A stretch of 64,000 nt of DNA from Catellatospora paridis. Its GTDB lineage: Bacteria > Actinomycetota > Actinomycetes > Mycobacteriales > Micromonosporaceae. Below, one piece after another: positions 9,920 through 49,744 of this stretch. Each line of letters opens with the position of its first letter. Within the stretch, counting starts at the first letter, position 1. The position numbers and the translations under genes are program-made. The notes beneath the pieces were generated by a model. The model was given only the letters and a program-made list of their open reading frames with translations. It was not told where the DNA came from and did not search any database. The stretch spans positions 310,001 through 374,000 of the forward strand of contig NZ_WBZD01000016.1 in assembly GCF_009720365.1 (NCBI RefSeq), in the 5' to 3' direction.

Positions 9920-11173
9920 TCAGCCGCGGGGGAACTGTTCTGCCAGGCCGTCAGGCGTGACGAGGGGTGTCGTGAGCAGGTCGCGGACCATGCGGTCGCG
10001 GCGGGTGAGCGCGTCGCGCTGGGCCGCGGTGAGCGGGATCCACGGCGGCGGCGGCGCGGGCAGGCTCGGCGGCAGCAGCCGCCCGGCGACGTAGGTGGCC
10101 TCGTTGCGCAGCCGCAGCGGCGCACTCCGGATCTGCCCGTGCACGTCGGCGAGCGGGAACCCGCCCCGTTCCATGGCGAACACGGCCAGGTCGGCCGGTG
10201 CGCCGACGCGCAGCGTGCCGGTGCCCGCGGGCAGCCCGAGGGCGTGCGCGGGCGCGCTGGTCGCCGCGGCGACGACCGCGGCGAGCGGCAGGCCGACGGC
10301 GAGCAGCTTGGCCATCGTCGTCGGCAGGTCGAAGGCGGGGCCGTGCAGCGAGCGCGCGTGCAGGTCGGTGGAGACGATGTGCGGCGGCATCCCGGCCGCG
10401 AGCTGCGCCTCCAGCACGTCGTACGCGAAGCCGCCCGAGCCGTGGCCGAGGTCGAACAGCACCCCGGCGTCGTACGCGCGGCGCAGCGCCGGATCGAGGC
10501 CGCCCCGGCCCAGGGCGATGCCGCTGGCACAGTGCGTGACGATGTCACCGGGTCCGAGCAGCGGCAGCAGTTCGGCGATGGTGGGCGGAGCGAGCCCCAC
10601 GTGCACCATGAGCGGCAGCTCGCAGGCCCGGGCGACGGCGACCGCGCGGCGCAGCGGCTCCAGCCCGTTGGCCCCGACGGTGTTGGCGTCGATGCGGGCC
10701 TTGATCCCGTACACCACGTCCCGGTTCGCGGTGACGGCGGCGATCGCGAGGTCGACGTCGCACGCGGCGAGGTCGCGGGACTCGCCGGTGAGCCCGGTCA
10801 GGCCGACGGCGGAGATGTTGAGCAGCACCGGCACCCGCACCCGGTAGCCGCGCACCGCGCGGCGCAGGGCGTCGAGCCCGTACGCCCCCGCGGAGCCCGC
10901 GTCGACCCAGGTGGTGACGCCGGAGCACCAGGCGACCGGGTCGGGGTCGATGCCCCAGTACGTCGCCCCGGGGAAGACGTGCGTGTGCAGGTCGACCAGG
11001 CCGGGCGTGACCAGGCGGCTGCTCGCGTCGACGAGCTCGCGGGCGCCCTCGCGGGCCAGGTCCGTGCCGACCGCGGCGATCCGCCCGCCGGTCACCGCCA
11101 CATCGGCCACGCCGTCGCGGCCGCCGTCCGGATCGATCACATGACCACCGGTCAGCAGCAGGTCGTAAACCAT
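9920..11173 (-). CDS. Amidohydrolase/deacetylase family metallohydrolase
   Basis: 417 residues, full length for the family. The N-terminal urease/dihydroorotase-like beta domain leads into the metal site H63-x-H65 (DLHTHVFPG). Further ligands are visible: K158 (GIKARID, position of a carboxylated bridging lysine), H191 (MVHVG), H214 (IVTHC) and D270 (STDLH). This is the complete set for a binuclear amidohydrolase. The closest named group is the EF_0837/AHA_3915-type amidohydrolase/deacetylases, whose substrates are acylated amino acids or sugars. No signal peptide, so cytosolic. It is a single gene, with the HAD/sulfatase pair 146 bp upstream on the same strand. Confidence 0.88.
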   Translation of the reverse strand: MVYDLLLTGGHVIDPDGGRDGVADVAVTGGRIAAVGTDLAREGARELVDASSRLVTPGLVDLHTHVFPGATYWGIDPDPVAWCSGVTTWVDAGSAGAYGLDALRRAVRGYRVRVPVLLNISAVGLTGLTGESRDLAACDVDLAIAAVTANRDVVYGIKARIDANTVGANGLEPLRRAVAVARACELPLMVHVGLAPPTIAELLPLLGPGDIVTHCASGIALGRGGLDPALRRAYDAGVLFDLGHGSGGFAYDVLEAQLAAGMPPHIVSTDLHARSLHGPAFDLPTTMAKLLAVGLPLAAVVAAATSAPAHALGLPAGTGTLRVGAPADLAVFAMERGGFPLADVHGQIRSAPLRLRNEATYVAGRLLPPSLPAPPPPWIPLTAAQRDALTRRDRMVRDLLTTPLVTPDGLAEQFPRG

Positions 11174-11319: not shown

Positions 11320-12225
11320 TCACGCCGGGAAGATCACTGACCAGTCGTCCCGCATGGAGACCACGGTCCAGCCCAGACGGCCCGCGGTGGCGGTGATCGG
11401 CTCGGTGTCCTTGAAGGTCACCGCGGCCGAGGCGTACGCGTACTCCCGCTCCGCGTCGTCGTGGTCGATCAGCACGGCCAGGCTGGGCATGCCCGCGGCG
11501 CGCGCGTACTCCAGCATCTCCCGGTCGCCCGCGGAGTTGCCGGCCGCGAAGATCGGGCGGCGGCCCAGCTGGGTCTGGATGTGCTCGACCTTCGCCGAGC
11601 CCTCGTTGACCTCGCCCTGCGCCTGCGCGGTGCGCACCAGCGCCGGACCGCCGCCGTGCTGCTCCTCGTAGTGGTATTCGACCAGCGTGCCGACCACGTC
11701 GTCGGGGCGCACGCCGTAGAGGTCGCGGCTGACCGCGCGCACGAACTCGGTGCCGCCGCCGGTGACGATGAAGACGTCGAAGCCGTGCCCGCGCAGCGCC
11801 TCCAGCAGCTCCAGCATCGGCTGGTAGACCATCTTCGGATACGGGGCGCCTCGGCCCGGGTGCTTCTCGGCCGCCATGAAGTCGCGCACCCGTTCGGCGA
11901 ACTCGTCCGGCGTCCAGCCCGCGCACAGCTCCAGCAGGGCCAGCGCGATCCGCTGCAGGCCCAGTTCGCCGAGTGCGGCCCGGTCGCCGTCCAGCAGGGC
12001 CCGGTATTCGGCCCGGTCGGCGAGGGCGGCATCGTGCTCGACGGCGGCGTGCAGGGTGCGCACGAGGAAGTCGTACTGGATGTAGTTCGGCTTCTCGCAC
12101 CACAGCGTGCCGTCGTTGTCGAGCACGGCCACCCGCTGGTCGGGAGGCAGCGCCAGCGACTCGTCGAGGAACGACGTGATCGCTTCGCGCGCGGGGCCGG
12201 GCCGCCAGGAGGGCAGGAATGCCAT
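11320..12225 (-). CDS. HAD-superfamily phosphatase (phosphoserine phosphatase-like)
   Basis: 301 residues. HAD motif I is VLDNDGTLW with nucleophile Asp36 and acid/base Asp38; motif II is FIVTGGGTEF; motif III/IV is AAGNSAGDREML. A helical cap (about 60-140) resembles the SerB group. The ATG at 12223-12225 overlaps the sulfatase stop (TGATG), so the two are translationally coupled and made together. A role in removing phosphate next to desulfation is inference; the substrate is not readable. An upstream in-frame extension would lie inside the sulfatase gene and is rejected. Confidence 0.85.
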   Translation of the reverse strand: MAFLPSWRPGPAREAITSFLDESLALPPDQRVAVLDNDGTLWCEKPNYIQYDFLVRTLHAAVEHDAALADRAEYRALLDGDRAALGELGLQRIALALLELCAGWTPDEFAERVRDFMAAEKHPGRGAPYPKMVYQPMLELLEALRGHGFDVFIVTGGGTEFVRAVSRDLYGVRPDDVVGTLVEYHYEEQHGGGPALVRTAQAQGEVNEGSAKVEHIQTQLGRRPIFAAGNSAGDREMLEYARAAGMPSLAVLIDHDDAEREYAYASAAVTFKDTEPITATAGRLGWTVVSMRDDWSVIFPA

Positions 12226-14129
12226 CAGTGACTCCCTATCCCTTCCCGCAGCTTCTCCATGACCTGGTCGACCGTGAAGCTGGCCGCGTGCTGGCGCGGC
12301 GGGAACTTTCCGAACGTGGCCATGAAGGCGCCGACCAGTTTCTGCGCGGCCAGGATCATGTACACGCGGTCCAGGAACCAGGAGTAGTAGGTGTTGGACG
12401 TGACGTCGGCTCGCTCGAACGGGTCGGTGCGCAGGTTGTAGAGCTTGGGCACGCGCAGCACCGTGAACGGTTCGGACCACACGCGGAACGTGCCCGGAGC
12501 CCGCTGCTCCAGGAAGACCACCTTCCAGTTGTCGTAGCGCAGCGCGGTCAGGTCACCGTCGTCGGAGAAGTAGAAGAAGCCCTCGCGCGGGCCGTGCGGC
12601 TCCTCACCGGTGAGGTACGGCAGCAGGTTGAACCCGTCCAGCTGCACCTGGAAGTGTTTGCCCGCCGCCTCGTGCCCCGCCTCGAGCTTGTCCACGATGT
12701 CCGGGTCGCCAGCCGCGGCCAGCAGCGTCGGCAGCAGGTCCAGGTGGCTGACGAGCTCGTTGGAGATCCGCCCCGGCCGGATGCGTCCGGGCCAGCGCAG
12801 CATGGCCGGCACCCGGTAGGCGCCCTCCCAGTTCGAGTTCTTCTCGCTGCGGAACGGAGTCGTCGCCGCGTCCGGCCACGAGTTCATGTGCGGGCCGTTG
12901 TCGGTGCTGTACATGACGATCGTGTCGTCGGCGATGCCGAGTGCGTCGAGCAGGCCCAGCAGCTCGCCGACCAGCCGGTCGTGGTCGATCATCACGTCGT
13001 GGTAGTCGGACTGCCACGGGCCCGCCTGGCCCTTGATCTCGGGCCGCGGGTGCGTCTTGAAGTGCATGTGCGTGGTGTTGAACCAGACGAAGAACGGCGT
13101 GTCCGCGGCGGCCTGCCGACCGATGAAGTCGGCCGCGTGCTCGAACGCCTCGTCGTCGATGATCTCCATCCGCTTGCGGGTCAGCGGTCCGGTGTCCTCG
13201 ATCTTCTGGCCGCCGCCGGGCAGCGCCCAGCAGTGCAGCACGCCGCGCGGCCCGAAGTTGGCCTTGAAGTCCGGGAAGCGCCGCGGGTCGGGGTAGTCCT
13301 CGTGCTCGGGCTCCTCCTCGGCGTTGAGATGGTAGAGGTTGCCGAAGAACTCGTCGAAGCCGTGCATGGTGGGCAGGAACCGGTCCTTGTCCCCGAAGTG
13401 GTTCTTGCCGAACTGGCCGGTCGCATACCCGTGCGGTTTCAGCAGTTCGGCGATCGTCGGGTCCTCGGCCTGCAGGCCGAGGTCGGCGCCCGGCATGCCG
13501 ACCTTGGACAGTCCGGTGCGGAACACCGACTGCCCGGTCAGGAACGCGGCCCGGCCCGCGGTGCAGCTCTGCTCGCCGTAGTAGTCGGTGAAGCGCACCC
13601 CCTCGGCGGCGATCCGGTCGATGTTCGGCGTGCGGTAGCCCATCAGCCCGTCGCTGTAGCAGCTCAGGTTGGTGATGCCGATGTCGTCACCCCAGATGAC
13701 CAGGATGTTGGGCTTGCGGCCCGCGCCCGCCCCGCCCGCCGCCGACCGCGGCGAGGACTTGCGCGCCGGCCCTCGGTCGGCCGAGTTGCGTGCGCTCGCG
13801 CGGGAGGGCGGGGCCTTCTTCGCCGGTACGGGAACCGCCGCCTTCTTACGCGGCCCCGCCTTGCGTGCGGTCGGCCCACCCAGCCCCCCGCCCGCAACCA
13901 CAGCCGCCGACCTGAGCAGCTGCTCCGCGGGGGCGGCCTTCGCGGTGGCCTTCTTCCCGGTGGCCTTGGTGGCAGCGGCCTTCGACGTGGTGGCCTTCGG
14001 CGCGACGGTCTTCGTCACGGTCGCCTTGCTCGGGGCGGCCTTGCGGGCCGCCGTCTGCGCTGCGGCCGCCTGCTTCGCCGACGCCTTCTTCGCGGTGGCC
14101 TTCTTCGCCGTGGACTGCGTACGGGGCAT
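12225..14129 (-). CDS. Type I sulfatase with a 138-residue Lys/Ala-rich histone-H1-like N-terminal tail
   Basis: 634 residues from the ATG at 14129, preceded by GGGAGG. The catalytic domain starts at about residue 139 with RKPNILVIWGDDIG, which supplies the metal-binding Asp148/Asp149. The sulfatase signature is C189-T-A-G-R193 (SCTAGRAAFLTGQ); Cys189 is the residue converted to formylglycine. Later motifs (GKNHFGDKD, VWFNTTHMHFK, MYSTDNGPHMNSWPD, SEKNSNWEGAYRVP) complete the arylsulfatase fold. Residues 1-138 lack a signal peptide and consist of repeated AKKA/TKA/ARK units, like the tails of actinobacterial HU proteins. This is not part of the sulfatase family. The next gene downstream (HAD) overlaps it, and a formylglycine-generating enzyme lies 1.8 kb away. 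Confidence 0.92.
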   Translation of the reverse strand: MPRTQSTAKKATAKKASAKQAAAAQTAARKAAPSKATVTKTVAPKATTSKAAATKATGKKATAKAAPAEQLLRSAAVVAGGGLGGPTARKAGPRKKAAVPVPAKKAPPSRASARNSADRGPARKSSPRSAAGGAGAGRKPNILVIWGDDIGITNLSCYSDGLMGYRTPNIDRIAAEGVRFTDYYGEQSCTAGRAAFLTGQSVFRTGLSKVGMPGADLGLQAEDPTIAELLKPHGYATGQFGKNHFGDKDRFLPTMHGFDEFFGNLYHLNAEEEPEHEDYPDPRRFPDFKANFGPRGVLHCWALPGGGQKIEDTGPLTRKRMEIIDDEAFEHAADFIGRQAAADTPFFVWFNTTHMHFKTHPRPEIKGQAGPWQSDYHDVMIDHDRLVGELLGLLDALGIADDTIVMYSTDNGPHMNSWPDAATTPFRSEKNSNWEGAYRVPAMLRWPGRIRPGRISNELVSHLDLLPTLLAAAGDPDIVDKLEAGHEAAGKHFQVQLDGFNLLPYLTGEEPHGPREGFFYFSDDGDLTALRYDNWKVVFLEQRAPGTFRVWSEPFTVLRVPKLYNLRTDPFERADVTSNTYYSWFLDRVYMILAAQKLVGAFMATFGKFPPRQHAASFTVDQVMEKLREGIGSH

Positions 14130-14239
14130 GTCGCCTCCCAGGACCCGGATACCGCGCTCCAGTATTCCGGAGATACGAGCCTTATTTCCGTTATTGCCGG
14201 AATGCGTTGATACCGTCGTAACCGGACGATGGAGGTCGC

Positions 14240-14947
14240 GTGGGCGTGCTGACGGCTGCGGGATGGGGCGCCCTGGCGGCGTTCTCCCTGGTCGTGGGCG
14301 CGTGGCTGGCATTGCGGACGCGCCCGGTCCCCGCGACACGGGTCGGCATGGTTATGGGCTTCGGCTCCGGCGCGCTGCTCGCGGCGATCGCGTACGAGCT
14401 GGTGCCCACCGGCTTCCACCAGGACGTGCTGCTGTTCTCCGCGTTCGGCCTGGGCGGGGTGGTCTTCTTCGTCACGGACGCGGTCGTGGCCGGGCGGCGC
14501 ACCATGGGCGCGGGCTCCGCGGAACGGTCCCTGGTGATCGGCGCGCTGCTGGACGGCGTGCCGGAGTCGCTGGTGCTGGGCATCGGGGTGGCCATGAGCG
14601 GCGAGGTGGCGGTGGCCTTCCTGGTCGCGGTGTTCGTGTCCAACCTGCCCGAGGCCATCGGCGCGACGGCGACCATGCGCACCCACGGGCACACCAGAGC
14701 CCAGGTGTACGGCGTGTGGTGGAGCATCGTGGCGGTGTCGGCGCTGGCCGCGGCCGCCGGCTACGTGTTGTACCAGGTGGTGCCGCGCGCCGACGGCGGT
14801 TACGTGGAGGCCTTCGCCGCGGGCGCGGTGCTGACCATGCTGGCCGACTCGATGATCCCGGAGGCCTACCGGCAGGGCGGCAAGGCCACCGGCCTGCTGG
14901 CCGTGCTCGGCTTCGCGGTGGCCGGCGCGCTCTCCGCGCTGGAGTAG
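14240..14947 (+). CDS. ZIP-family-like metal transporter
   Basis: 235 residues from a GTG four bases after GGAGG. About seven hydrophobic segments. The family's polar membrane motif is present as GALLDGVPESLVLGIG, followed by VSNLPEAIGATA, equivalent to the HNxPEG-type metal site but with Asp and Asn in place of His. A short His-containing loop (MRTHGHTRAQ) is present. It probably moves a divalent cation across the membrane, and Ca2+ for the neighbouring sulfatase is a possible link but only inference. It is divergent from the sulfatase across a 110-bp A/T-richer gap that contains an ATTCCGG...CCGGAAT inverted repeat (14164-14203), a possible operator. Confidence 0.72.
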   Translation: MGVLTAAGWGALAAFSLVVGAWLALRTRPVPATRVGMVMGFGSGALLAAIAYELVPTGFHQDVLLFSAFGLGGVVFFVTDAVVAGRRTMGAGSAERSLVIGALLDGVPESLVLGIGVAMSGEVAVAFLVAVFVSNLPEAIGATATMRTHGHTRAQVYGVWWSIVAVSALAAAAGYVLYQVVPRADGGYVEAFAAGAVLTMLADSMIPEAYRQGGKATGLLAVLGFAVAGALSALE

Positions 14948-15110
14948 CCGATATCAAGGACATATTGCGGAAAAACCGCATTTCAGTATGAGCCGGTGCA
15001 TAGTCTGCAACCGGATGGCTCTCACTTCCGGCGGGATCCATGAGCAGGCGCGACGATCGAAATCGGCCGCGGTCCGCACATGCCGCCGACGAGCGCAGCG
15101 AGGAGAAGGC

Positions 15111-15887
15111 ATGAGCACCGCATCGCCCAGCCCCAGCACCGGTAAGCCCGGCGCGGCCGCCACGGCCGGCGCCCACGCGGCGAAGGAGGCCGAGGGCGTG
15201 GCGACCGGCACCGCACGGGCGGCCACCGGGTCCACGCCCGGCCCGATCCCACCGGGCACGACGTCGACCGGCGACGTGTTCCGCAGCGCCGGAACGCCGC
15301 TGCCCGCGTCCCGGGTGCCGTGGTGGCTGTTCCTCATCACCGGCGTCTGCTGGATCATCGTCAGCTGGTTCGTGCTGGCCCTCAACCAGTCGCCGGTGCG
15401 CAGCATCGCCACGGTCGCCACGCTGGCCGGCATCGTCGTGCTGGTGGCCGGCATCTTCGAGCTGTTCCAGGCGTTCACCGCACCCGGCTGGCGCTGGCTG
15501 CACGCCATCCTCGGCGTGCTGTTCCTGATCACCGGCTTCATCTGCTGGATCAACCCCGGCGGCACGGTGTTCTGGCTGGCCGCGTTCATCGGCTGGTACC
15601 TGCTGTTCAAGGGCGCCGCCGACATCGTGCTCGCCTTCCTCACCAAGAAGGAGCACGACGGCTGGTGGCTGGGCCTGGTCGTCGGCATCATCGAGATGCT
15701 GCTGGGCTTCTGGGCCGCGGGTCGCTTCACCCGCTCGTTCTTCCTGCTCATCGTGTTCGTCGGCGCGATCTGCCTGGCCCGCGGCATCACCGACTTCATC
15801 ATGGCGTTCCGGATGCGCGACCTGAAGCACCAGGCGGAGAAGGGGCTCGTCGGACCGGGCGGCACCGGCACGGCGGTCACCGCGTGA
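15111..15887 (+). CDS. DUF308/HdeD-like membrane protein
   Basis: 258 residues from the ATG at 15111 (GAGGAGAAGGC upstream). The first 60 residues are a Ser/Thr/Ala/Pro-rich cytosolic tail. Then come six membrane segments arranged as repeated pairs, each with the DUF308 pattern (LGVLFLITGFICWINPGGT, GIIEMLLGFWAAGR). HdeD relatives are linked to acid or envelope stress in enterobacteria, but the actinobacterial members have no proven function. Its stop overlaps the GTG of the formylglycine-generating enzyme (GTGA), so the two are coupled. Confidence 0.8.
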   Translation: MSTASPSPSTGKPGAAATAGAHAAKEAEGVATGTARAATGSTPGPIPPGTTSTGDVFRSAGTPLPASRVPWWLFLITGVCWIIVSWFVLALNQSPVRSIATVATLAGIVVLVAGIFELFQAFTAPGWRWLHAILGVLFLITGFICWINPGGTVFWLAAFIGWYLLFKGAADIVLAFLTKKEHDGWWLGLVVGIIEMLLGFWAAGRFTRSFFLLIVFVGAICLARGITDFIMAFRMRDLKHQAEKGLVGPGGTGTAVTA

Positions 15888-16867
15888 GTGGACCGGTCAC
15901 CCTGACCCGGCCCGGCCGGGACGGCGAGGCACCAGGCGCGCCGCCCCGGCCGGGCATGGTGTGGCTGCCCGGCGGCACGTTCCGGATGGGCTCCGACGCG
16001 CACTACCCCGAGGAGGCCCCCGCGCACCCGGCGCGGGTCGGCGGCTTCTGGATCGATCGGCAGCAGGTCACCAACCGGCAGTTCGCCGAGTTCGTCCGGC
16101 GGACCGGCCACGTCACCGTCGCCGAGACCGCCCCGGACCCGGCCGACTATCCCGGGGCCGACCCGTCGCTGCTGGTCCCCGCGTCGGTCGTGTTCATCCG
16201 ACCGCCCCGCCGGGTGGACCTGCGCGACGTGCGGAACTGGTGGCAGCTGCTGCCCGGCGCGGACTGGCGTCGCCCGTACGGGCCCGGCTCGGACCTGCGC
16301 GGCCTCGACGACCATCCGGTCGTGCACGTGGCCTGGGCCGATGTCGCCGCTTACGCGGCCTGGGCGGGCGGCGACCTGCCGACCGAGGCCGAATGGGAGT
16401 ACGCCGCGTCCGGCGGCGCGACCGAGCCGGCCGAGTACGCCTGGGGCGACGAGCTGACCCCGGCCGGGCGGCACCTGGCCAACGTGTGGCAGGGCGAGTT
16501 CCCGGTCCTCAACCTGGCCGCTGACGGCTACGAGTCGACCGCGCCCGTCGGCTCGTTCCCGCCGAACGCGTTCGGGCTGCACGACATGATCGGCAACGTG
16601 TGGGAGTGGACGTCCGACTGGTACGGCCCGCACGACACCGCCGGTCAGCACGGCTGCTGTGCCCCTGCGAACCCGCGCGGCGGCGTGGAGCAGGCCAGCT
16701 ACGACCCGGCCACGCCCGCCGTACGCATCCCCCGCCGGGTGATGAAGGGCGGCTCCTTCCTCTGCGCGCCGAACTACTGCCGCCGCTACCGCCCCGCCGC
16801 CCGGATGCCCCAGGCCGTCGACACCTCGACCTGCCACCTCGGCTTCCGCCTGGTGATCCGGCCCTGA
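15884..16867 (+). CDS. Formylglycine-generating enzyme (sulfatase maturase, SUMF1/FGE type)
   Basis: 327 residues from the GTG that overlaps the previous stop. The fold is recognisable from PGMVWLPGGTFRMGSDAHYPEE at the start, HVAWADVAAYAAWAGGDLPTEAEWEYAA in the middle and the GNVWEWTSDWYG motif. The C-terminal active site GGSFLCAPNYCRRYRPAAR contains both copper/redox cysteines, Cys294 and Cys299, at the spacing of the human pair Cys336/Cys341. This separates true FGE from the many FGE-like proteins that lack them. It converts the sulfatase Cys in C-x-A/P-x-R to formylglycine, and the sulfatase at 12225-14129 carries exactly that motif. It is the clearest functional pairing in the window. 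Confidence 0.93.
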   Translation: MSGPVTLTRPGRDGEAPGAPPRPGMVWLPGGTFRMGSDAHYPEEAPAHPARVGGFWIDRQQVTNRQFAEFVRRTGHVTVAETAPDPADYPGADPSLLVPASVVFIRPPRRVDLRDVRNWWQLLPGADWRRPYGPGSDLRGLDDHPVVHVAWADVAAYAAWAGGDLPTEAEWEYAASGGATEPAEYAWGDELTPAGRHLANVWQGEFPVLNLAADGYESTAPVGSFPPNAFGLHDMIGNVWEWTSDWYGPHDTAGQHGCCAPANPRGGVEQASYDPATPAVRIPRRVMKGGSFLCAPNYCRRYRPAARMPQAVDTSTCHLGFRLVIRP

Positions 16868-31851: not shown

Positions 31852-34242
31852 GTGCCGACCCCTGAGCGCCTCGCCAACCGGAGCCTGCCGGCCCTCCTGC
31901 GCGACGCCGCCGCGCTCACGCTGAAGCAGTGGCGCGGCCTGCTGACGGTGGCCGCCGCCGCACTCGTGCCCGCGCTGCTGGCCCGTGAGGTCATCGGCAT
32001 GTTCGCGCTCAACGGCAGCGCCACGATCGTGGACGGGTCGTTCACCCCGGCGCCCGCGGCGGCCGCCGGCGGGGCGGGACTGGTCGCGCTCGCTCTCGGC
32101 TGGGTGGTGGCGCTGGTCGCGGGCATCGCGGTGGCGGCGGGCGGCCTGCGCGGCATCCCGGTCGATCCCCGGGCCGCGCTGCTGCTGTCCCTGCGACGGC
32201 TGCCCGCGCTGGTGCCGGCCCTGCTGCTGCTCGCTGTCGCCGCGGTCGGGCTGCAGGTCGTGACCATGCTCGCGGTCGCCTTCTTCGACATCGCGCTGCC
32301 GCAGGACGTGGCCACCGCGGCGGTCTTCGGCCTCTTCGTGCTGACCCTGATCGTGCTGGCCAGCAGGCTGCTGACGGTGCCCGCGATCGTGCTGGGCGAC
32401 GGGGCGGTCTCCTGGCTGTCGCACGCGCACGCGCTCGCCGCGGGCCGTTTGCTGACGGCCGGCGGTGCGCTGGCGATCGGTGTGGTGGTGACCCCGGCGC
32501 TGGTCGGCATGGGCGCCGCCGCGCTGACTCAGGCGCAGCCCGCGCTCGCCCTGGTGGTCGCCGCCGTCGCCGCGATCGTCGTGCCGGCCGTGCAGGCCGC
32601 CGTGCTCGCCACCGTCTACCTGCAACGCCGCCCGGCGGGCGCCCGTGGCGCGGAGGCCGACCTCGACCGGGTCGACCGGACGCTGTCGGCCCTGTCCCCT
32701 GCGGTGACGCCCGTTCCCGCGCCGGCGGACCCGACCACCGACGAGCAACCGGCGTCCGCCACCGTCGCGTCAGGTCTCACCACGGCCGAACGGGCCACCG
32801 GTCCCCGGCACGGCGCGGTGGCGCGGACGGGGCCCTTCGCCGCGCTCGCCCGGCCGTTCGCCAGGACCGCCTGGCCCCTCGCGAGGTTCGGCCGGCCCGT
32901 CGCGGGGCTCGCCTGGCGCGTCGCGAGATTCGTCCGGCCCGTCGCGCGGTTCGCCCGGCCCGTCGTCAGGTTCACCGGGCCCGTCGCCAGGCTCACCCGG
33001 CCCTGGACCGGCCGCGTCGCGCTCGCCGCGGCCCTGGCCTCGCTGTCGCTGCCGGCCCTGCTCGGGCTGGGTTTGGCGGCCGCCGACCCGTGGGACGGCC
33101 CGCACGCGAGCCGGCACGGCGTCTCGTGGAGCGGCGAGGTGCTGGCCATGGCTTGGCCGTCCGGACACCATCCGGTCGTGGTCACCGACTACGGCCCGCA
33201 CTGGTGCCTCGACGACGAGTGCCGCGACGTCCGCTCCCGCAGCTCCGAGCCGCTGATGCTGGGTGCGCCGATGCCCGCCACCGCGATCACCGCCACCGGC
33301 GACGTGGTCTCGGCAGGCATCCGCGGCCGGGAGAACCGGGCGGTGAAGACCAACGGCGACGACGCCGTGCAGATGCAGCGCTGCACCGCACCGTGGGCCT
33401 CGGCCGACTCCCGGCCCAAGCCGGGCACCTGCGAGGACGGCATCACCCATTGGCACAGCGGCGGCAAGGAGGGCCAGTCGCACCTGGCCGTCGCCGCCGG
33501 GCCGGACGGCTCGGTCGTGGTGGCCACCGCTCGCCCGCTGCTGGTGAAGGCCGACGGCCGGCCGCGGGTGCAGCTGGCGGTCACCCGCTGCAACACGGTG
33601 CACTGCAACCGGCGGTCGCTGGACGTGCTCGGCACGGTCGAGGTCGAGCTGAGCGCCTGGCTGCCCGAAGGCACGGTCACCGCCCCCGGGTACGCCCCGC
33701 TGCTCCAGCTCACCCTCGACACCGCGGACCGGCCGACGGTGCTGCTCCGCGATCCGGCCGGGCGCCGGGCTTGGCTCGCCACGTGCCCGACGGCCGCGTG
33801 CGACGCTCCCCGCGTCACCGAGATCGGCGCGCCGGAACGCGCCACCGACCAGGCCGTGCTGCTGCCCGGCGGCGCTATGCCGCGGCTGGTCGCGGGCGGT
33901 GACGCGATCACCTTCCACGCGCCGGTGGCGGTCGCCGCGAACGGCCCCGGCCTGTACGTGCTGGGCACGGAGTCCGATCTGGCCGCCCCGGTGCCGCTGG
34001 CCCCGGCCGAGTACGGCAGCGGCAGGCTGGTGCTCTGGCACTGCCCGCCCGGCTCGGTGGACCGGGCCCGCCGGGCGGCGCTGCCGCTGCTGGCCGGCGA
34101 GCTGTTCCAGGCCGCGCTGGTGACCAGCGGCGACGGCCGGGTGCTGGTGACCTACTCCGACAGCGGCCGCCGGTACGCCGTGCTGGTGACCGGACCGCCC
34201 AACCCGGGCAAAGGCCCCTATTGCGCGGGGTTCGGCGGCTAG
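31852..34242 (+). CDS. Membrane protein with eight tandem heptapeptide repeats, unknown function
   Basis: 796 residues from a GTG. Residues 1-257 form about six membrane segments resembling a glycerophosphoryl-diester-type or DUF7847-like membrane domain. After a Thr/Ala/Pro linker come eight exact 7-residue repeats (332-387) of consensus [FL]-x-R-P-V-A-R, strongly basic, then one more membrane segment (388-410). The remaining 385 residues are probably extracytoplasmic and beta-rich, with paired cysteines (WCLDDECRD, CNTVHCN, CPTAACD, HCPPG). Phrases such as VVTDYGPHWCLDDECRDVRS recur loosely, suggesting a propeller. No homologous function recognised. It follows the conservon by 77 bp. Confidence 0.75.
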   Translation: MPTPERLANRSLPALLRDAAALTLKQWRGLLTVAAAALVPALLAREVIGMFALNGSATIVDGSFTPAPAAAAGGAGLVALALGWVVALVAGIAVAAGGLRGIPVDPRAALLLSLRRLPALVPALLLLAVAAVGLQVVTMLAVAFFDIALPQDVATAAVFGLFVLTLIVLASRLLTVPAIVLGDGAVSWLSHAHALAAGRLLTAGGALAIGVVVTPALVGMGAAALTQAQPALALVVAAVAAIVVPAVQAAVLATVYLQRRPAGARGAEADLDRVDRTLSALSPAVTPVPAPADPTTDEQPASATVASGLTTAERATGPRHGAVARTGPFAALARPFARTAWPLARFGRPVAGLAWRVARFVRPVARFARPVVRFTGPVARLTRPWTGRVALAAALASLSLPALLGLGLAAADPWDGPHASRHGVSWSGEVLAMAWPSGHHPVVVTDYGPHWCLDDECRDVRSRSSEPLMLGAPMPATAITATGDVVSAGIRGRENRAVKTNGDDAVQMQRCTAPWASADSRPKPGTCEDGITHWHSGGKEGQSHLAVAAGPDGSVVVATARPLLVKADGRPRVQLAVTRCNTVHCNRRSLDVLGTVEVELSAWLPEGTVTAPGYAPLLQLTLDTADRPTVLLRDPAGRRAWLATCPTAACDAPRVTEIGAPERATDQAVLLPGGAMPRLVAGGDAITFHAPVAVAANGPGLYVLGTESDLAAPVPLAPAEYGSGRLVLWHCPPGSVDRARRAALPLLAGELFQAALVTSGDGRVLVTYSDSGRRYAVLVTGPPNPGKGPYCAGFGG
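32845..33012 (+). repeat. Eight in-frame 21-bp coding repeats
   Basis: 168 bp divide exactly into eight 21-bp units, each coding a heptapeptide of the type [FL]-x-R-P-V-A-R. The units differ by several bases, so they are old or under drift, yet length is kept in frame throughout. The pattern lies between two membrane parts of the protein at 31852-34242. Such arrays readily gain or lose units. Confidence 0.85.
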
Positions 34243-42782: not shown

Positions 42783-45700
42783 TTACCGCATCCGGCCGAT
42801 GGCACCCCGCAGCCTGGCCAGGTCCCGGCGGCTCCGCTCGTACGTGATGGCCAGCGCCAGCAGCACCGCCCCGCCGACCGCGATCGGCACCCACGTCGGC
42901 AGCAGCTGCGACACCAGCACCAACAGCAGCTCGTGCAGTGCGAGCACCAGCAGCACGCCACCGCCGAGCACCACCGGCGCCTGCAGCCGCCGCACCGAGC
43001 CGAACACGGTGACCGCGAGCGCGCCCAGCCCCAGCAGCAGCCGCCGCAGCGGGGTGCCAGACTCCTCGGTGAGCGCACCCGCCAAGCTGGGCAGCAGCGC
43101 CGCGACCAGCGCCGGGCCGGCGTACAGCCAGCTGGACAGGTCCGGCCGGGCACGTGCCGCATACCAGCCGACGGCCAGCGCGAGCAGGGCCACCGGCAGG
43201 GTGTACGCCTCCAGCAGGCCGACGCCGTTCGCGCCGAGGATCGCGCACCAGGCGATCGACTCCAACAGCGCGGCCGCGGCGGCCCGCGGGACCCGTTGTG
43301 GGCGCGGCGCGGCGAGCACGGTGAGTCCGACCGCGACCCCCCACAGCGCCAGCACCAGGGCGATCGACCGGACGTGTCCGTGGCACAGCGACAGCGCGAC
43401 CAGCACCGCGGCGTGGGCCGCCGCCTCCGCCGCGGCCCGCTGCTCCCGGGCGAACGGCGCGTACGCCAGCCCCAGCACGAGCGCCGCGACCCCGAGCACC
43501 AGGTACGCGGTGACCTCGAAACTCAGCTCGGCCGCCTCGCCGATCGCGACCGCCAGCAGCACCTTGGCAGCCGCCCCGGCCAGCCAACCGGCGGTGCGCG
43601 CCGACCGGGTCCGCCCGCCCACCGCGATCGCGGCCAGCGTCACGGACACCAGCGCCAGTCCGGTGATCGTCGACCACTTCTCGGCCAGCGCTCCGGCCAG
43701 CCCGGCCACCGTCAGCAGCGTCCCGAACAGCCCGCCCGCCAGCGTGAGCGCACCGTAGGGCCGCAGCGCGACCAGCACCAGCAGACCCGCGCCGAGCACC
43801 AGCTGCACCGCACTGACCGTCGGCCACGGCGCCTGCGCGGCGGCCAGCGCCGCGAGTCCGGCGACCCCCGCCACGACCCCGCCGGACACCGCCATCAGCC
43901 GCCCGCCGCCCCGCCGGAACCACCCCGCGACGGCAGGGGCGAGCAGCATCAGCGCGACGGCGTACGCCCAGGGCAGCCGGTCGCTCGGGTAGGCGCTCAG
44001 GCCGGTGCCGACGGGATCGCCCGCCCAGATCCGGTCCAGCCAGCTCAGCGGCGCGATGAAGATCAGGTGCAGCGCCTCGGCGCACATCAGCAGGGTCAGC
44101 GCCAGCACGAGCTGCGCCGGGATATCCGCCCGCGCCCATCGTGACTGCATCGCGACCAGGGCCAGGGCCAGCGTGCACAGCGCCGCGTACACCGCCGCGG
44201 AATCCTGCGCGGGCAGGCCGCCCGGCAGCGCCCACAACGCCCCCACCAGGCCGCCGAGCACGGCGTAGTCGCGCAGCCGGGCGGGTGACAGGTACACCCA
44301 GAGCGGCGTCAGCACCGCGGCGACCAGCAGCGCGCGGCGCGACCACGGGTCGTCGACGCCGGCCGCGGCCACCACGCTGTGCACCATGGGCGGCAGCAGC
44401 GCCAGCGCCACCGCGCCGCTCACCCCGCCCAGCACCCGCACCCCGTGCAGCGCGCTCGCGGTGCTCACCGTGCCGGACCCGGCGGCGGTCCGCGTCCCCC
44501 CGTCCGGCACCAGCGCACTGCGCCAACCGATCACGGCCGCGGCCAGGCCGAGCACCACCACGCCGCCCAGCGCCCAGGCCGACAGCACCTGGCTCCCCGC
44601 GCCGGCCAGCAGCGCGTGCCCGGCGAGCAGCCCGGCCACCGCGCCCCAGAGCACGATGTGGCGGCGCAGCAGCAGTGCCACGGCGAGCGCGACGGCGGCT
44701 GCGACCAGATCGCAGGCGAGCGCCGCCCACGGCGTCAGCGCCGGGTGGCCCGGCACCGTCAGCGGGAGCAGCAGCACGGCCCCGGCGGCGACGTACGCCC
44801 GCACCGCCGCCGGCACCGGCGGACCGGCGAGCAGCCAGGCCGCGACGGCCACCACGGCCAGGCTCACCGGCAGCAGCCAGCCGTACGAGCCGTCGAAGCG
44901 CGCCGGTTCGGCGGCCCACCACGGCGTCGCGTCCAGCACCGACTGCCAGCCCTCGCCCAGCGCCCAGCCCGCGGCGCACAGCGCGGGCACGCTCAGCGCC
45001 AGCGCCGCGCCGCCGGCCATCCCGGCGCGGACCGCGGGCCACCGGGCCGACAGCGGCCCGCCCAGCACCACCACCAGCATCGTCACCAGCGCCGCGGCGC
45101 CCGCCATCACCAGAAGCCAGTAGTGCGGCCACTGCACGAGCCCTGGTCGCGCCAGCGCCGCGGCGAGCGCCACGGTCACCACACCACCGGCCGTGGGCCG
45201 GGCGAACCCGGCGGAAGTGCCCTTACCGGCCTGCCAGAGCCCGGCCGCCAGCACCCCGGCCGCGGCGAGCAGCGCCAGCGAGCCGGTGACCGCGGTGTCG
45301 GGATCGGCCCCGAGCAGCCACGCGATCAGCGACAGCAGGCCGCCGACCCCCAGCATTCCCAGGTATGCCAGCACCGCCAGCACCCGGAGCCCGGCCCGAC
45401 CCGGCAGCTCCCCCGCAGGCTGCGCCGAAGCTCTGGCCGGGAGGTCCGCCGGGGAAGGAAGGTCCGCAGCGCCCGACGGCAGGGCTGAGCCGGCCGGGAC
45501 GGGTTCCTGCGTGGACTGCCTCGGCACGGACGCCGCGACGGCCGACGGCTCGTCCGGCGACGGCTCATCCCCGGGCACCGCCCCGGCGACCGGATCCCGC
45601 TGTGCGTCGTCCGCGGCGACTGGCCTGGCCGTGTCCGGTGCCGACGCGCCGGCGGTCGGCTCGACGGCTGCCGCCCCAGCGGTGGTGCGCCGGCTCAGCA

Positions 45701-46574
45701 CCTGGTAGAGCAGCAGGTCGCCGAGAGCCACCGCGGTGAAGATGACCGACCAGCCCGCCACGTCGGCGGACGACTCGAGGAAGAACAGGGGAAGTGCGGG
45801 CTGTGCCGCCAGTAGCGCGCCGAACCGGGTCGCGCTGGTCCCGACGACCCGCGCGTAGCCGTAGCCGAGCAGGGCGGTGAACGTGGCCACCGCGCCCGCG
45901 TAGAAGCCCTGGTCCCAGTGATCGGCGACGCCGCCGAGGTTGACGTACCAGACGGCGTACCCGTCGAGCACGACCAGCAGCAGGCCGAGCGCGGCGAAGG
46001 TCTCCGCGGTCGCGGTCAGCGCGCGGCGGCGCACCAGCGGCGGCACGGCCAGCACGCCGATGGTGAGCACGCCGAGGATCAGCGCCCGGCCGACCACGTC
46101 GAACGTCGCCCAGGCCACGGCGGTGAACACGATCGCGGCGATGCCGAGCAGCAGCCCGCCCAGGATGAACAGCAGGTTCTGCACGGTGCGCGGCGAGGAC
46201 TCCGGCTGCCGGCCGACGGGCGGCAGGGTGCCTGCCGTCGGCGGGACGGTGCCGGCGGGCTGCGGCAGGCTGCTGGTGGTCGGCGGCAGCGTGAGCAGGG
46301 TGGACTGGTGCGCCGAGCGTTCCCGGGCCACCGCCACGCGGACCCGCGACGCGTACACCTCACGGTCCTGGCGCAGTCGCGTCAGCTGCCCCGCCAGCGA
46401 CTCGTACGCGCTGCGCGCCTGCTCCACCTGCGGCGCGAGCGCGGTGATCTGCGCGTCGTAGGCCAGCACCGCAGCCGCGTCGGGGTCCGGTGCGCGGCCG
46501 CAACCGGGGCAGGGACCGCCCAGCGTGGCGGTGGCTCTGCACAGCGGGCAGGGGTACGACGCGTGCTCGGTCAT
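42783..46574 (-). CDS. Giant polytopic membrane protein, SCO7613-like
   Basis: 1263 residues from the ATG at 46574. An N-terminal zinc ribbon C-x2-C...C-x2-C (YPCPLCRATATLGGPCPGCG) and a coiled-coil-like stretch (about 40-85) precede more than 30 membrane helices, almost without soluble loops except an acidic Ala/Pro insert at about 290-390. It matches the SCO7613 C-terminal-domain protein family, widespread in actinobacteria and uncharacterised. The cytosolic ribbon may recruit a partner to an intramembrane scaffold. No transporter signature or catalytic motif seen. Upstream frame extension lacks a start site. Confidence 0.8.
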   Translation of the reverse strand: MTEHASYPCPLCRATATLGGPCPGCGRAPDPDAAAVLAYDAQITALAPQVEQARSAYESLAGQLTRLRQDREVYASRVRVAVARERSAHQSTLLTLPPTTSSLPQPAGTVPPTAGTLPPVGRQPESSPRTVQNLLFILGGLLLGIAAIVFTAVAWATFDVVGRALILGVLTIGVLAVPPLVRRRALTATAETFAALGLLLVVLDGYAVWYVNLGGVADHWDQGFYAGAVATFTALLGYGYARVVGTSATRFGALLAAQPALPLFFLESSADVAGWSVIFTAVALGDLLLYQVLSRRTTAGAAAVEPTAGASAPDTARPVAADDAQRDPVAGAVPGDEPSPDEPSAVAASVPRQSTQEPVPAGSALPSGAADLPSPADLPARASAQPAGELPGRAGLRVLAVLAYLGMLGVGGLLSLIAWLLGADPDTAVTGSLALLAAAGVLAAGLWQAGKGTSAGFARPTAGGVVTVALAAALARPGLVQWPHYWLLVMAGAAALVTMLVVVLGGPLSARWPAVRAGMAGGAALALSVPALCAAGWALGEGWQSVLDATPWWAAEPARFDGSYGWLLPVSLAVVAVAAWLLAGPPVPAAVRAYVAAGAVLLLPLTVPGHPALTPWAALACDLVAAAVALAVALLLRRHIVLWGAVAGLLAGHALLAGAGSQVLSAWALGGVVVLGLAAAVIGWRSALVPDGGTRTAAGSGTVSTASALHGVRVLGGVSGAVALALLPPMVHSVVAAAGVDDPWSRRALLVAAVLTPLWVYLSPARLRDYAVLGGLVGALWALPGGLPAQDSAAVYAALCTLALALVAMQSRWARADIPAQLVLALTLLMCAEALHLIFIAPLSWLDRIWAGDPVGTGLSAYPSDRLPWAYAVALMLLAPAVAGWFRRGGGRLMAVSGGVVAGVAGLAALAAAQAPWPTVSAVQLVLGAGLLVLVALRPYGALTLAGGLFGTLLTVAGLAGALAEKWSTITGLALVSVTLAAIAVGGRTRSARTAGWLAGAAAKVLLAVAIGEAAELSFEVTAYLVLGVAALVLGLAYAPFAREQRAAAEAAAHAAVLVALSLCHGHVRSIALVLALWGVAVGLTVLAAPRPQRVPRAAAAALLESIAWCAILGANGVGLLEAYTLPVALLALAVGWYAARARPDLSSWLYAGPALVAALLPSLAGALTEESGTPLRRLLLGLGALAVTVFGSVRRLQAPVVLGGGVLLVLALHELLLVLVSQLLPTWVPIAVGGAVLLALAITYERSRRDLARLRGAIGRMR

Positions 46575-46602
46575 GCGGGTCAGCATGCCGTAATCGCGCC
46601 AG

Positions 46603-48186
46603 TTACGGATCGACCGCTCGGTCGGTGGGGTCGGTCGGCGATCCGTCCGAAGGCGAGGGCGGCCCGGCCGGGCCTCGTCTGCGCGGCTTTCCCGGCTTGT
46701 CCGCGGCGGTGTCCGGCTCCTCGGCGTCTGCCCGGGCGGCCTGCGCCGTCGGCAGCGGTTCCGACAGCTCCCACGGGGTCGGCTCGTCCGTGAGATCCTG
46801 CTCGGCGGCCTCGTCACCGGACGAGCCGACCGTCGCCCCGGCCGCAGCGGCGGCCGCCGTGGGGGCCTCGGCGCCGAGCGGCGGGCCCGCGGGCAGCGGT
46901 TCGGCGGCCATGGCGGGCATCCGCCGAGCGAGCGTCAGCACCAGCGTGGCGAGCGCGGCCAGCACGAACGCCCACACCGCCGTCGCCACCGACGGCCGGG
47001 CCAGCAGCCACCAGCCGGCCAGCACACCGAGCACGATCGCGAACCAGCGGAAGTGACGGCGTACGAACCCGCCCGTCCGCACCGCCCACGACTCGCGCGC
47101 CAGCGGCCGCACGGCCCGGTCGAGCACGGCGTTCACGCCGCGGCGCAGCAGCACCGCGGGCCGCGACGGGCCCGCCAGCAGCGCCCACAGCACCGCGAGC
47201 AGCGCCGCCACCAGCACCGTGACCAGGGCGGTGACCAGGAACCGGAGCACCGTGTCGTAGACGTCCAGCGTCACCGCCCGGTTCAGGCCGCGCTCGGTGG
47301 CCCGCTGCGCCGCCCGGTCGCGGACCATCTGGTTGGCGATCAGCCCGACGACCAGCATCAGCGCGCTGAGCGTCAGGCCGAGGATCAGTCCGCGCCGCCG
47401 GTTCGGGGCGGTCCACACGGCGAGCCCCAGCAGCAGCAGTGCCAGCGGCGGCAGCCAGGTCGCGCTGACGTCGAGCAGGCGCACGTAGCGCTGGATCTCC
47501 GGCAGCTGGTCCACCTGGGCGACGGTGTACGGGATGGACATGTCGGGGATCCGGGCCGCGAGGCCGAAGCCGCGGTCGACCAGCTCCTGCCGCGCGGCGG
47601 CCAGCACCGGGCCCAGATCCACCACGATGTCGGTGCCGGAACTGTGCAGCATGGGCGTGCCCTGGCCGGTGAGCAGCCCTTCGATGTTCTGGTGGGCGGT
47701 GCGGTTGACCTGGTTCCACACCGCGGGGAAGCGTGGCGAGGTGACCAGCTCGTGCACCACCTTGTGGATCTGGCTCTGCAGCCAGGAGGTCACGGCGGGC
47801 AGCACCAGGTCGATCACCGCCTGTACGCGCGGCAGGTTGACCGCACTGGCCAGGTCGCCCGCGAGCTTCTCCAGGGGCAGCCGCGCCATGATCTCGTGGG
47901 TGACGCGGTCGGTGATCGCCGCCTGCACCTGTGGATCGCTGGCGAGCGGGGCGACGGTCTCGACGTAGTTGTCGGTGTCGAGCAGTTCGGCGCGGGCGAA
48001 ACGCGCCGTCACCGAGGCCAGCACCAGCACCGCCGCGAGCAGGGCGAGCAGGAACGCGCCGATCCAGCGCAGCGTGCGGGCCGGTCCCCCGCCGGTCTGC
48101 CGCGGGGCAGGCTCGTGCACCTCGTGCGTGGCACCGGCGAGCCGCCTCTCCCACGCCGACAGGGAAGAATCCTCGGGCTCGGTCAT
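46603..48186 (-). CDS. Membrane protein with long extracytoplasmic helical domain
   Basis: 527 residues. One membrane segment near the N-terminus (about 40-62), an extracytoplasmic region of about 170 residues (LLDTDNYVETVAPLASDPQVQAAITDRV...), then five or six membrane segments (about 240-430) and a Pro/Ala/Asp-rich cytosolic tail. The DTDNYVETVAPLA...PQVQ pattern recurs in actinobacterial membrane proteins of unknown function. Its ATG overlaps the stop of the SHOCT gene (TGATG), and it ends 28 bp before the giant membrane protein, so all are one unit. Confidence 0.82.
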   Translation of the reverse strand: MTEPEDSSLSAWERRLAGATHEVHEPAPRQTGGGPARTLRWIGAFLLALLAAVLVLASVTARFARAELLDTDNYVETVAPLASDPQVQAAITDRVTHEIMARLPLEKLAGDLASAVNLPRVQAVIDLVLPAVTSWLQSQIHKVVHELVTSPRFPAVWNQVNRTAHQNIEGLLTGQGTPMLHSSGTDIVVDLGPVLAAARQELVDRGFGLAARIPDMSIPYTVAQVDQLPEIQRYVRLLDVSATWLPPLALLLLGLAVWTAPNRRRGLILGLTLSALMLVVGLIANQMVRDRAAQRATERGLNRAVTLDVYDTVLRFLVTALVTVLVAALLAVLWALLAGPSRPAVLLRRGVNAVLDRAVRPLARESWAVRTGGFVRRHFRWFAIVLGVLAGWWLLARPSVATAVWAFVLAALATLVLTLARRMPAMAAEPLPAGPPLGAEAPTAAAAAAGATVGSSGDEAAEQDLTDEPTPWELSEPLPTAQAARADAEEPDTAADKPGKPRRRGPAGPPSPSDGSPTDPTDRAVDP

Positions 48187-49141: not shown

Positions 49142-49744
49142 ATGATTGATCCGTACGGAGACGCGGCACTCGAGGCCGGCGCGTTGCGTTCGTTCAAGCG
49201 CATGTCGATCATCGGTGGGTTGATCTCCATCGCCGCGGGTCTCGCGCTCACCTTCTGGCCCGAGAAGACGCTCGTGCTGATCGCGGCGCTGATCGGCGTA
49301 TGGCTCGTCATCGTCGGGATCTTCCGGATCGTCGAGGGCCTGACCGCCAAAGGCGTCAGCGGCGGCCACCGGGCCCTGATCGCCGTGATGGGCCTGCTCT
49401 ACGTCGTCGTCGGCATCATCTGCCTACGACACCTGGTCGACTCGATCAAGGTGCTCGCCGTGGTGCTGGGCCTGGTCTGGATCGTCGGCGGGGTGGCCGA
49501 GGTGGTCACCGGCTTCGCGCGCACCCACGGCACCTGGCCGAAGATCGGCACCGTGCTGATGGGCCTGCTCAGCATCGCCGCCGGCCTGATCCTGTTCTTC
49601 TGGCCCGGCATCACACTCACCGTGCTGGTCTGGATCACCGGCTTCTGGCTCATCGCGCTCGGCATCATCCAACTGGTCCTCGGCTTCACCTCCGGCCGCG
49701 CCGCCAAACGCGCCGCCTCCGGCTCCGTCTCCGGCGTCGCCTGA
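49142..49744 (+). CDS. HdeD/DUF308 family membrane protein
   Basis: 200 residues, six membrane segments in three repeated hairpins (MSIIGGLISIAAGLALTFWPEKT; LLYVVVGIICL; LLSIAAGLILFFWPGIT), each with the DUF308 FWP turn. Second member of this family in the window (see 15111-15887). Probably an envelope stress protein; unproven in actinobacteria. A/T-rich 79-bp gap upstream, likely leaderless. Confidence 0.87.
   Translation: MIDPYGDAALEAGALRSFKRMSIIGGLISIAAGLALTFWPEKTLVLIAALIGVWLVIVGIFRIVEGLTAKGVSGGHRALIAVMGLLYVVVGIICLRHLVDSIKVLAVVLGLVWIVGGVAEVVTGFARTHGTWPKIGTVLMGLLSIAAGLILFFWPGITLTVLVWITGFWLIALGIIQLVLGFTSGRAAKRAASGSVSGVA

Follow-up and report, generated by a model that had tools for sequence, protein, structure and literature searches.

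A histone-H1-like, lysine- and alanine-rich tail on a predicted cytosolic sulfatase of Catellatospora as a possible polyanion tether

We analyzed a stretch of 64,000 nucleotides from Catellatospora paridis (contig NZ_WBZD01000016.1, positions 310,001 to 374,000; referred to here as the window) and found that one of its genes encodes a sulfatase whose catalytic core follows a long, strongly basic N-terminal tail that is very probably translated and that recurs in a clade of close relatives. Our preferred reading, to which we give close to an even chance, is that the protein is a cytosolic sulfatase, activated by a formylglycine-generating enzyme (FGE), whose tail was lengthened in this clade and may act as a general polyanion tether. 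Only tentatively do we go further and propose that a histone-like tail would anchor the sulfatase to the nucleoid or to polyphosphate granules, confining desulfation within the cell, and that such a tether was gained repeatedly in one protein family; this fuller picture is possible rather than probable. The features of the window on which the analysis rests are collected in Table 1.

Table 1. Features in and around the tailed sulfatase gene, in window coordinates
Feature	Coordinates	Strand	Evidence or remark
Amidohydrolase (PRK09237 type), downstream of sulfatase	9920..11173	-	Same order in L001
HAD-family hydrolase	11320..12225	-	Pfam HAD; ATG overlaps sulfatase stop (TGATG, 12223-12227)
Sulfatase gene, tail and core	12225..14129	-	634 aa; ATG 14129-14127, stop 12227-12225
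Sulfatase catalytic domain, residues 139-634 and stop	12225..13715	-	Pfam; AlphaFold mostly confident fold
CTAGR formylglycine site, residues 189-193	13551..13565	-	Sequence; invariant in 68 aligned sequences
Lys/Ala-rich N-terminal tail, residues 1-138	13716..14129	-	Charge ~+30; disordered in the AlphaFold prediction
Degenerate 15-nt tandem array (5-residue unit) in tail	13938..14113	-	Tandem Repeats Finder; 11.7 copies, 67% matches
GGGAGG, Shine-Dalgarno-like, 4 nt before ATG	14134..14139	-	Sequence
Divergent membrane protein, weak ZIP match	14240..14947	+	Pfam Zip E 0.00044, below cut-off
HdeD-like DUF308 membrane protein	14988..15887	+	First ATG of frame; actual start possibly downstream
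FGE	15884..16867	+	FGE-sulfatase E 1.5e-80; SFLCAPNYC, both cysteines

The original prediction was right about the boundaries of the gene and about its encoding a complete sulfatase domain with a C-T-A-G-R modification site. Pfam places the Sulfatase domain (PF00884) at residues 140 to 474 (E = 9.4e-50; 170.1 bits against a curated cut-off of 25) and Sulfatase_C at residues 514 to 588 (E = 2e-07). Type I sulfatases carry a formylglycine motif of the pattern C/S-X-P/A-X-R, to which CTAGR at residues 189 to 193 conforms. In addition to C189 and R193, the protein contains D148, D149, K242, H244, H356, D410, N411, and K430, which by comparison with other sulfatases presumably bind the metal and the sulfate, and all ten residues are invariant in an alignment of 68 sequences that we chose out of a set of 212. 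This conserved active site points to sulfate removal as the probable activity of the enzyme. AlphaFold models the core with confidence except for a few weaker stretches (mean pLDDT of the whole protein, 75.4), and the best solved relative of the core by sequence is 7aj0, an arylsulfatase entry that we take to be a fucoidan sulfatase. The core is acidic (charge −22), and the whole protein is close to neutral (+8).

The tail is of a very different composition: residues 1 to 139 comprise 42 A, 21 K, 11 R, 13 T, and 12 P, with a single D and a single E (charge, +30), and AlphaFold leaves residues 1 to 136 unfolded, with pLDDT values below 50. This region had been described as repeats of AKKA, TKA, and ARK. 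AKKA and ARK do recur, with three copies each (for AKKA, the shuffle mean is 0.27, and three copies are reached in 1 of 2,000 shuffles), whereas TKA occurs once, as does PAKKA, and a degenerate pentapeptide repeat describes the tail better. Pairs of K/R five residues apart number 16, compared with 7.0 in shuffled tails, and none of 1,000 shuffles reaches 16. The tail thus resembles a pentapeptide array that is old and has degenerated. In being rich in Lys and Ala, disordered, and poor in acidic residues, with short basic motifs (AKKA and PAKK) that recur, it resembles HU-type, histone-H1-like tails. No signal peptide was seen in it by eye, in line with the prediction; it has a single mildly hydrophobic stretch (around residues 70 to 84), which among the 12 long-tailed proteins described below is shared only with P0004. 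GC content in the tail is 0.91 at the third codon position (GC3), 0.66 at the first, and 0.73 at the second; the core has a similar GC3, 0.95. Across the 43 frames of a rough, GC3-based gene list for the window, the sulfatase tail holds the richest 60-aa stretch in Lys (14 K; the next has 7 K), and the five other frames with a comparably basic stretch of this length are all Arg rich, with 0 to 3 Lys. The same rough list contains a frame at 31852-34242 (+ strand) in which residues ~334 to 393 are Arg rich and carry repeated RPVARF-like units with no Lys.

Tails of this kind are found on other sulfatases, as a search for the architecture showed. With the core (residues 125 to 634) as the query, 8,000 proteins were scored and the best 120 taken; these include 11 other long-tailed proteins, the six with a named source all coming from Catellatospora, and with the window protein counted in, the tails span 106 to 145 aa, with charges of +23 to +32 and 0 to 3% acidic residues. 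A singleton or an assembly fluke is ruled out by these 11 proteins. The same best 120 of 8,000 contain 10 more proteins with short basic tails (22 to <100 aa, K+R at least 20%, acidic residues at most 5%), and the closest short-tailed or untailed relatives among them share about 75 to 78% core identity with the window protein; the identity to the C. vulcania protein over residues 125 to 634 is 92%. When we repeated the search with the tail in the query, 91 proteins were added, giving a set of 212 that is biased towards tails and from which no frequency can be read. We used FastTree to build a tree of 283 cores (204 proteins and 79 loci), leaving out P0010, P0012, P0122, P0129, P0130, P0142, P0143, and P0191 as chimeric, truncated, or duplicate and L001 as the same gene as P0011. 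Among the 204 proteins placed, the 12 with tails of at least 100 aa, window included, form one clade with a support of 100. The 25 short tails make up 13 further maximal groups, of which P0133 and P0151 are weak cases; this number may be one too many, since P0159 and P0160 have an identical N terminus but stand apart on the tree. At least 11 changes are required to explain which cores have a tail and which do not, a count that does not separate gain from loss. Shorter basic tails are therefore found repeatedly elsewhere in this family of sulfatases, and the statement that such a tail is not a sulfatase feature was too strong. Given these 13 other groups, on a tail-biased tree and under our own tail rule, a short basic N terminus seems to have been lengthened several times, most in Catellatospora. 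Spacing of K/R by five residues occurs 146 times against 79.5 across the 12 long tails (z = 9.1; the proteins are related) and 73 times against 49.3 in 16 of the 25 short tails (z = 4.7), a subset that we thinned ourselves by removing near-duplicates and the least AKKA-like tails. Among 80 loci from a genome collection (79 N termini inspected), a long tail occurs only in L001, from Catellatospora tritici; the remaining loci begin with a short stretch or, in many Gram-negatives, with an apparent signal peptide by eye, apart from L010, which fits neither pattern, and L073, which is cut by a contig end.

The genetic neighborhood is shared between the window and C. tritici, in both of which a membrane protein, the FGE, the DUF308 protein, the ZIP-like protein, the sulfatase, the HAD hydrolase, and the amidohydrolase follow in this order. 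The FGE begins at a GTG that overlaps the DUF308 stop (15884-15887), and this overlap, like that of the sulfatase and HAD genes, suggests translational coupling within each pair. Around the 80 loci (flanks of up to 6 kb, often truncated at contig ends), we found an HAD-like frame in 24, an FGE-like frame in 26, a DUF308 frame in 2, and a ZIP-like frame in 1. The window contains a second HdeD-like DUF308 gene at 49142-49744, and two long frames, at 42783-46817 and 46603-48186, have no Pfam match at 1e-5; one of them may be a wrong frame. In the metagenomic protein P0142 (722 aa), an FGE is joined to a sulfatase, which may be a frame error that merges neighbors.

The tether reading takes an FGE-activated cytosolic type I sulfatase as the starting enzyme. 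A cytosolic location is likely because the tail has no visible signal peptide and an FGE is encoded alongside. In the Catellatospora clade, a short basic N terminus would have been lengthened into a disordered polycation of 106 to 145 aa, built of degenerate 5-residue AKKAx units. This polycation could bind polyanions of the cell irrespective of sequence, with nucleoid DNA as the likeliest target and polyphosphate or RNA as alternatives, and would thereby hold the sulfatase in the nucleoid or on granules. For binding by the tail, we argue from analogy with HupB, HBHA, and AlgP. Passages in the cited reports describe the AKKA-bearing C-terminal domain of HbhA as necessary and sufficient for DNA binding (PMC10665949), heparin binding by the Lys/Ala/Pro tail of HBHA alone, even when grafted onto maltose-binding protein (PMC3293801), lysine repeats that keep TopA on DNA and are found also in HrdB, Ku, and HupS (PMC7398561), and AlgP, with its KPAA repeats, sitting on polyphosphate granules (PMC9239181). 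The acidic core and the near-neutral charge of the whole protein should weaken binding compared with the wholly basic HU proteins. We know of no sulfate ester in the nucleoid that could serve as a substrate.

With the type I sulfatases (PF00884), here an arylsulfatase-like clade with both cytosolic-looking and exported members, the window protein shares the Pfam domain, the CTAGR site, the metal and sulfate residues, and, for part of the loci, nearby FGE and HAD genes, but it has a long polycationic tail instead of a signal peptide or a start of ~10 aa. With HupB, HupS, and HBHA, it shares a Lys/Ala/Pro-rich stretch with AKKA/PAKK motifs, of the type that parts of the literature tie to DNA and heparin binding (PMC5676037, PMC10665949, PMC3293801), but its stretch is N terminal and sits on a metabolic enzyme. 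The original prediction of a likeness to actinobacterial HU tails holds for composition and AKKA-type motifs; sequence homology lay outside the reach of our length-limited search. That search, run with the tail alone and scoring 7,998 candidates, turned up just four relatives, all of them sulfatases from the long-tailed clade; the other 7 of the 11 long-tailed relatives escaped it, and its length rule left out proteins of HU and HBHA size. A histone-H1-like tail joined to another domain, as here, is described for TopA, Ku, HrdB, AlgP, and PhaF in passages of two reports (PMC7398561, PMC9239181), and bacterial histone-like lysine tails as they appear in the passages cited are carried by an adhesin or by proteins whose sites of action are DNA, polyphosphate, or granules (PMC7398561, PMC9239181, PMC10665949, PMC3293801). 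TopA, Ku, HrdB, AlgP, and PhaF act on DNA, polyphosphate, or polyhydroxyalkanoate (PHA) granules, whereas the window protein is a sulfatase. To our knowledge, no role of a sulfatase on any of these has been described. A sulfatase with a lysine-rich tail did not appear in the titles and abstract openings of those open-license PMC articles that ranked highest in our searches, which is not proof of absence, and the word “sulfatase” does not occur in the main text, as far as it was covered, of a survey of the Streptomyces coelicolor nucleoid (PMC3784963). A tail kept across a clade on a metabolic hydrolase would offer a clean tail-on/tail-off system for asking whether such a tail is enough to bring an enzyme to the nucleoid; one would also want to know which sulfate esters are processed there.

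The main rival to the tether reading is that the tail is a neutral by-product, in which GC-rich 15-nt repeats grew within a harmless disordered N terminus and took on no selected role. We consider this unlikely on balance, though it accounts for several observations, namely, the degenerate array in the tail DNA, the variation in tail length, the poor alignment of the N-terminal halves of the 12 long tails, and the basic N termini of just 10 to 25 aa (e.g., MVRAAGKRSGRRSGGK) in the six nearest proteins beyond the clade. Codon differences between the window and L001 tails are also compatible with it, as they number 50, 34, and 56 at positions 1, 2, and 3 over 102 loosely aligned codons, with no clear third-position excess. 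Against neutrality, the strong positive charge and the scarcity of acidic residues are kept in all 12 tails, 9 of the 12 (all but P0011, P0013, and P0014) share a well-conserved part next to the core (roughly AGPxKKA...AKKAPPxRA), and the 5-residue spacing persists in the protein even though the DNA units match at only 67%. The similar, shorter tails in 13 other groups argue in the same direction, in a sample partly drawn with the tail as bait.

A function other than binding to outside polyanions was considered as well. The tail might rest on its own acidic core or on a partner subunit and thus serve solubility, assembly, or gating, and indeed the charges nearly cancel in the 12 long-tailed proteins (core mean, −26.8; tail mean, +28.7; sum, +1.8 ± 2.9 [standard deviation]), their cores being set against a mean of −18.0 ± 10.2 for 165 untailed cores. 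Within the clade, however, tail and core charge show no clear covariation (Spearman coefficient, −0.35; P = 0.26), independent pairs across the tree give a median P of 0.625 with a trend in the opposite direction, and among proteins outside the clade, the more basic the extension, the less acidic the core tends to be (rho = 0.49). The tree hence lends no support to charge balancing as a general reason for tails, and we hold this explanation to be improbable for the window protein. We judge it quite improbable, too, that the tail captures a sulfated polyanionic substrate and steers it into the active site, as might be imagined from the relation of the core to 7aj0, with its presumed action on fucoidan. 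With no export signal seen, such a polymer would need to be intracellular, and the closest short-tailed and untailed relatives (~75 to 78% core identity among the best 120 of 8,000) presumably perform the same chemistry; we know of no sulfated polymers of Catellatospora. The steering idea does draw on the passage reporting that the HBHA tail by itself carries heparin binding (PMC3293801).

All readings of tail function presuppose that the tail is made, and here the prediction fared well: GGGAGG does precede the ATG, no Met follows the first one in the tail, and codons 78 to 150 are free of ATG, GTG, and TTG, for which reasons we regard the tail as very probably translated. Within the first 150 codons, such triplets occur only at positions 1, 38, and 77, and even the shortest product from these starts would keep about 60 tail residues. 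Allowing any M, V, or L as a start, the minimum translated tail is at least 39 aa in 9 of the 12 long-tailed proteins and 11 to 21 aa in the other 3. An untranslated tail, with the true start near residue 139, is thus highly improbable, and we reject it on the start-codon evidence. Homologs that start near this position had been named as grounds for doubt, and they are common: 123 of 211 sampled proteins (all of the 212 except P0012, which had no core match) begin at most 15 aa from the core, many loci do likewise, one of two public C. tritici records (P0010, versus P0011) starts from a GTG located 11 aa ahead of the core, and the C. bangladeshensis protein (P0012), considered here from its protein record, is annotated from inside the core. 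They do not refute the tail of the window gene, because this gene has no such start codon and its nearest relatives are tailed. In C. tritici (L001), the tail ATG is preceded by GGAGGTGATC, with GGAGGTGA as its Shine-Dalgarno-like site, whereas the GTG at codon 105, which lies 11 aa ahead of the core, lacks one.

Upstream of the tail, the frame stays open to a GTG at 14339, which falls within the divergent gene (14240 on); owing to this position and to the Shine-Dalgarno-like site, we favor the start at 14129. Two of the three antisense frames across the tail are also open, so that the openness of the tail frame alone proves little. A scan of 14100-14300 for promoters and terminators found none. 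The sequence CCGGAATACTGG occurs upstream of the sulfatase gene both in the window (14159-14170) and in C. tritici (L001, 5658-5669), 41 and 118 nt before the ATG, respectively, and may be a regulatory site.
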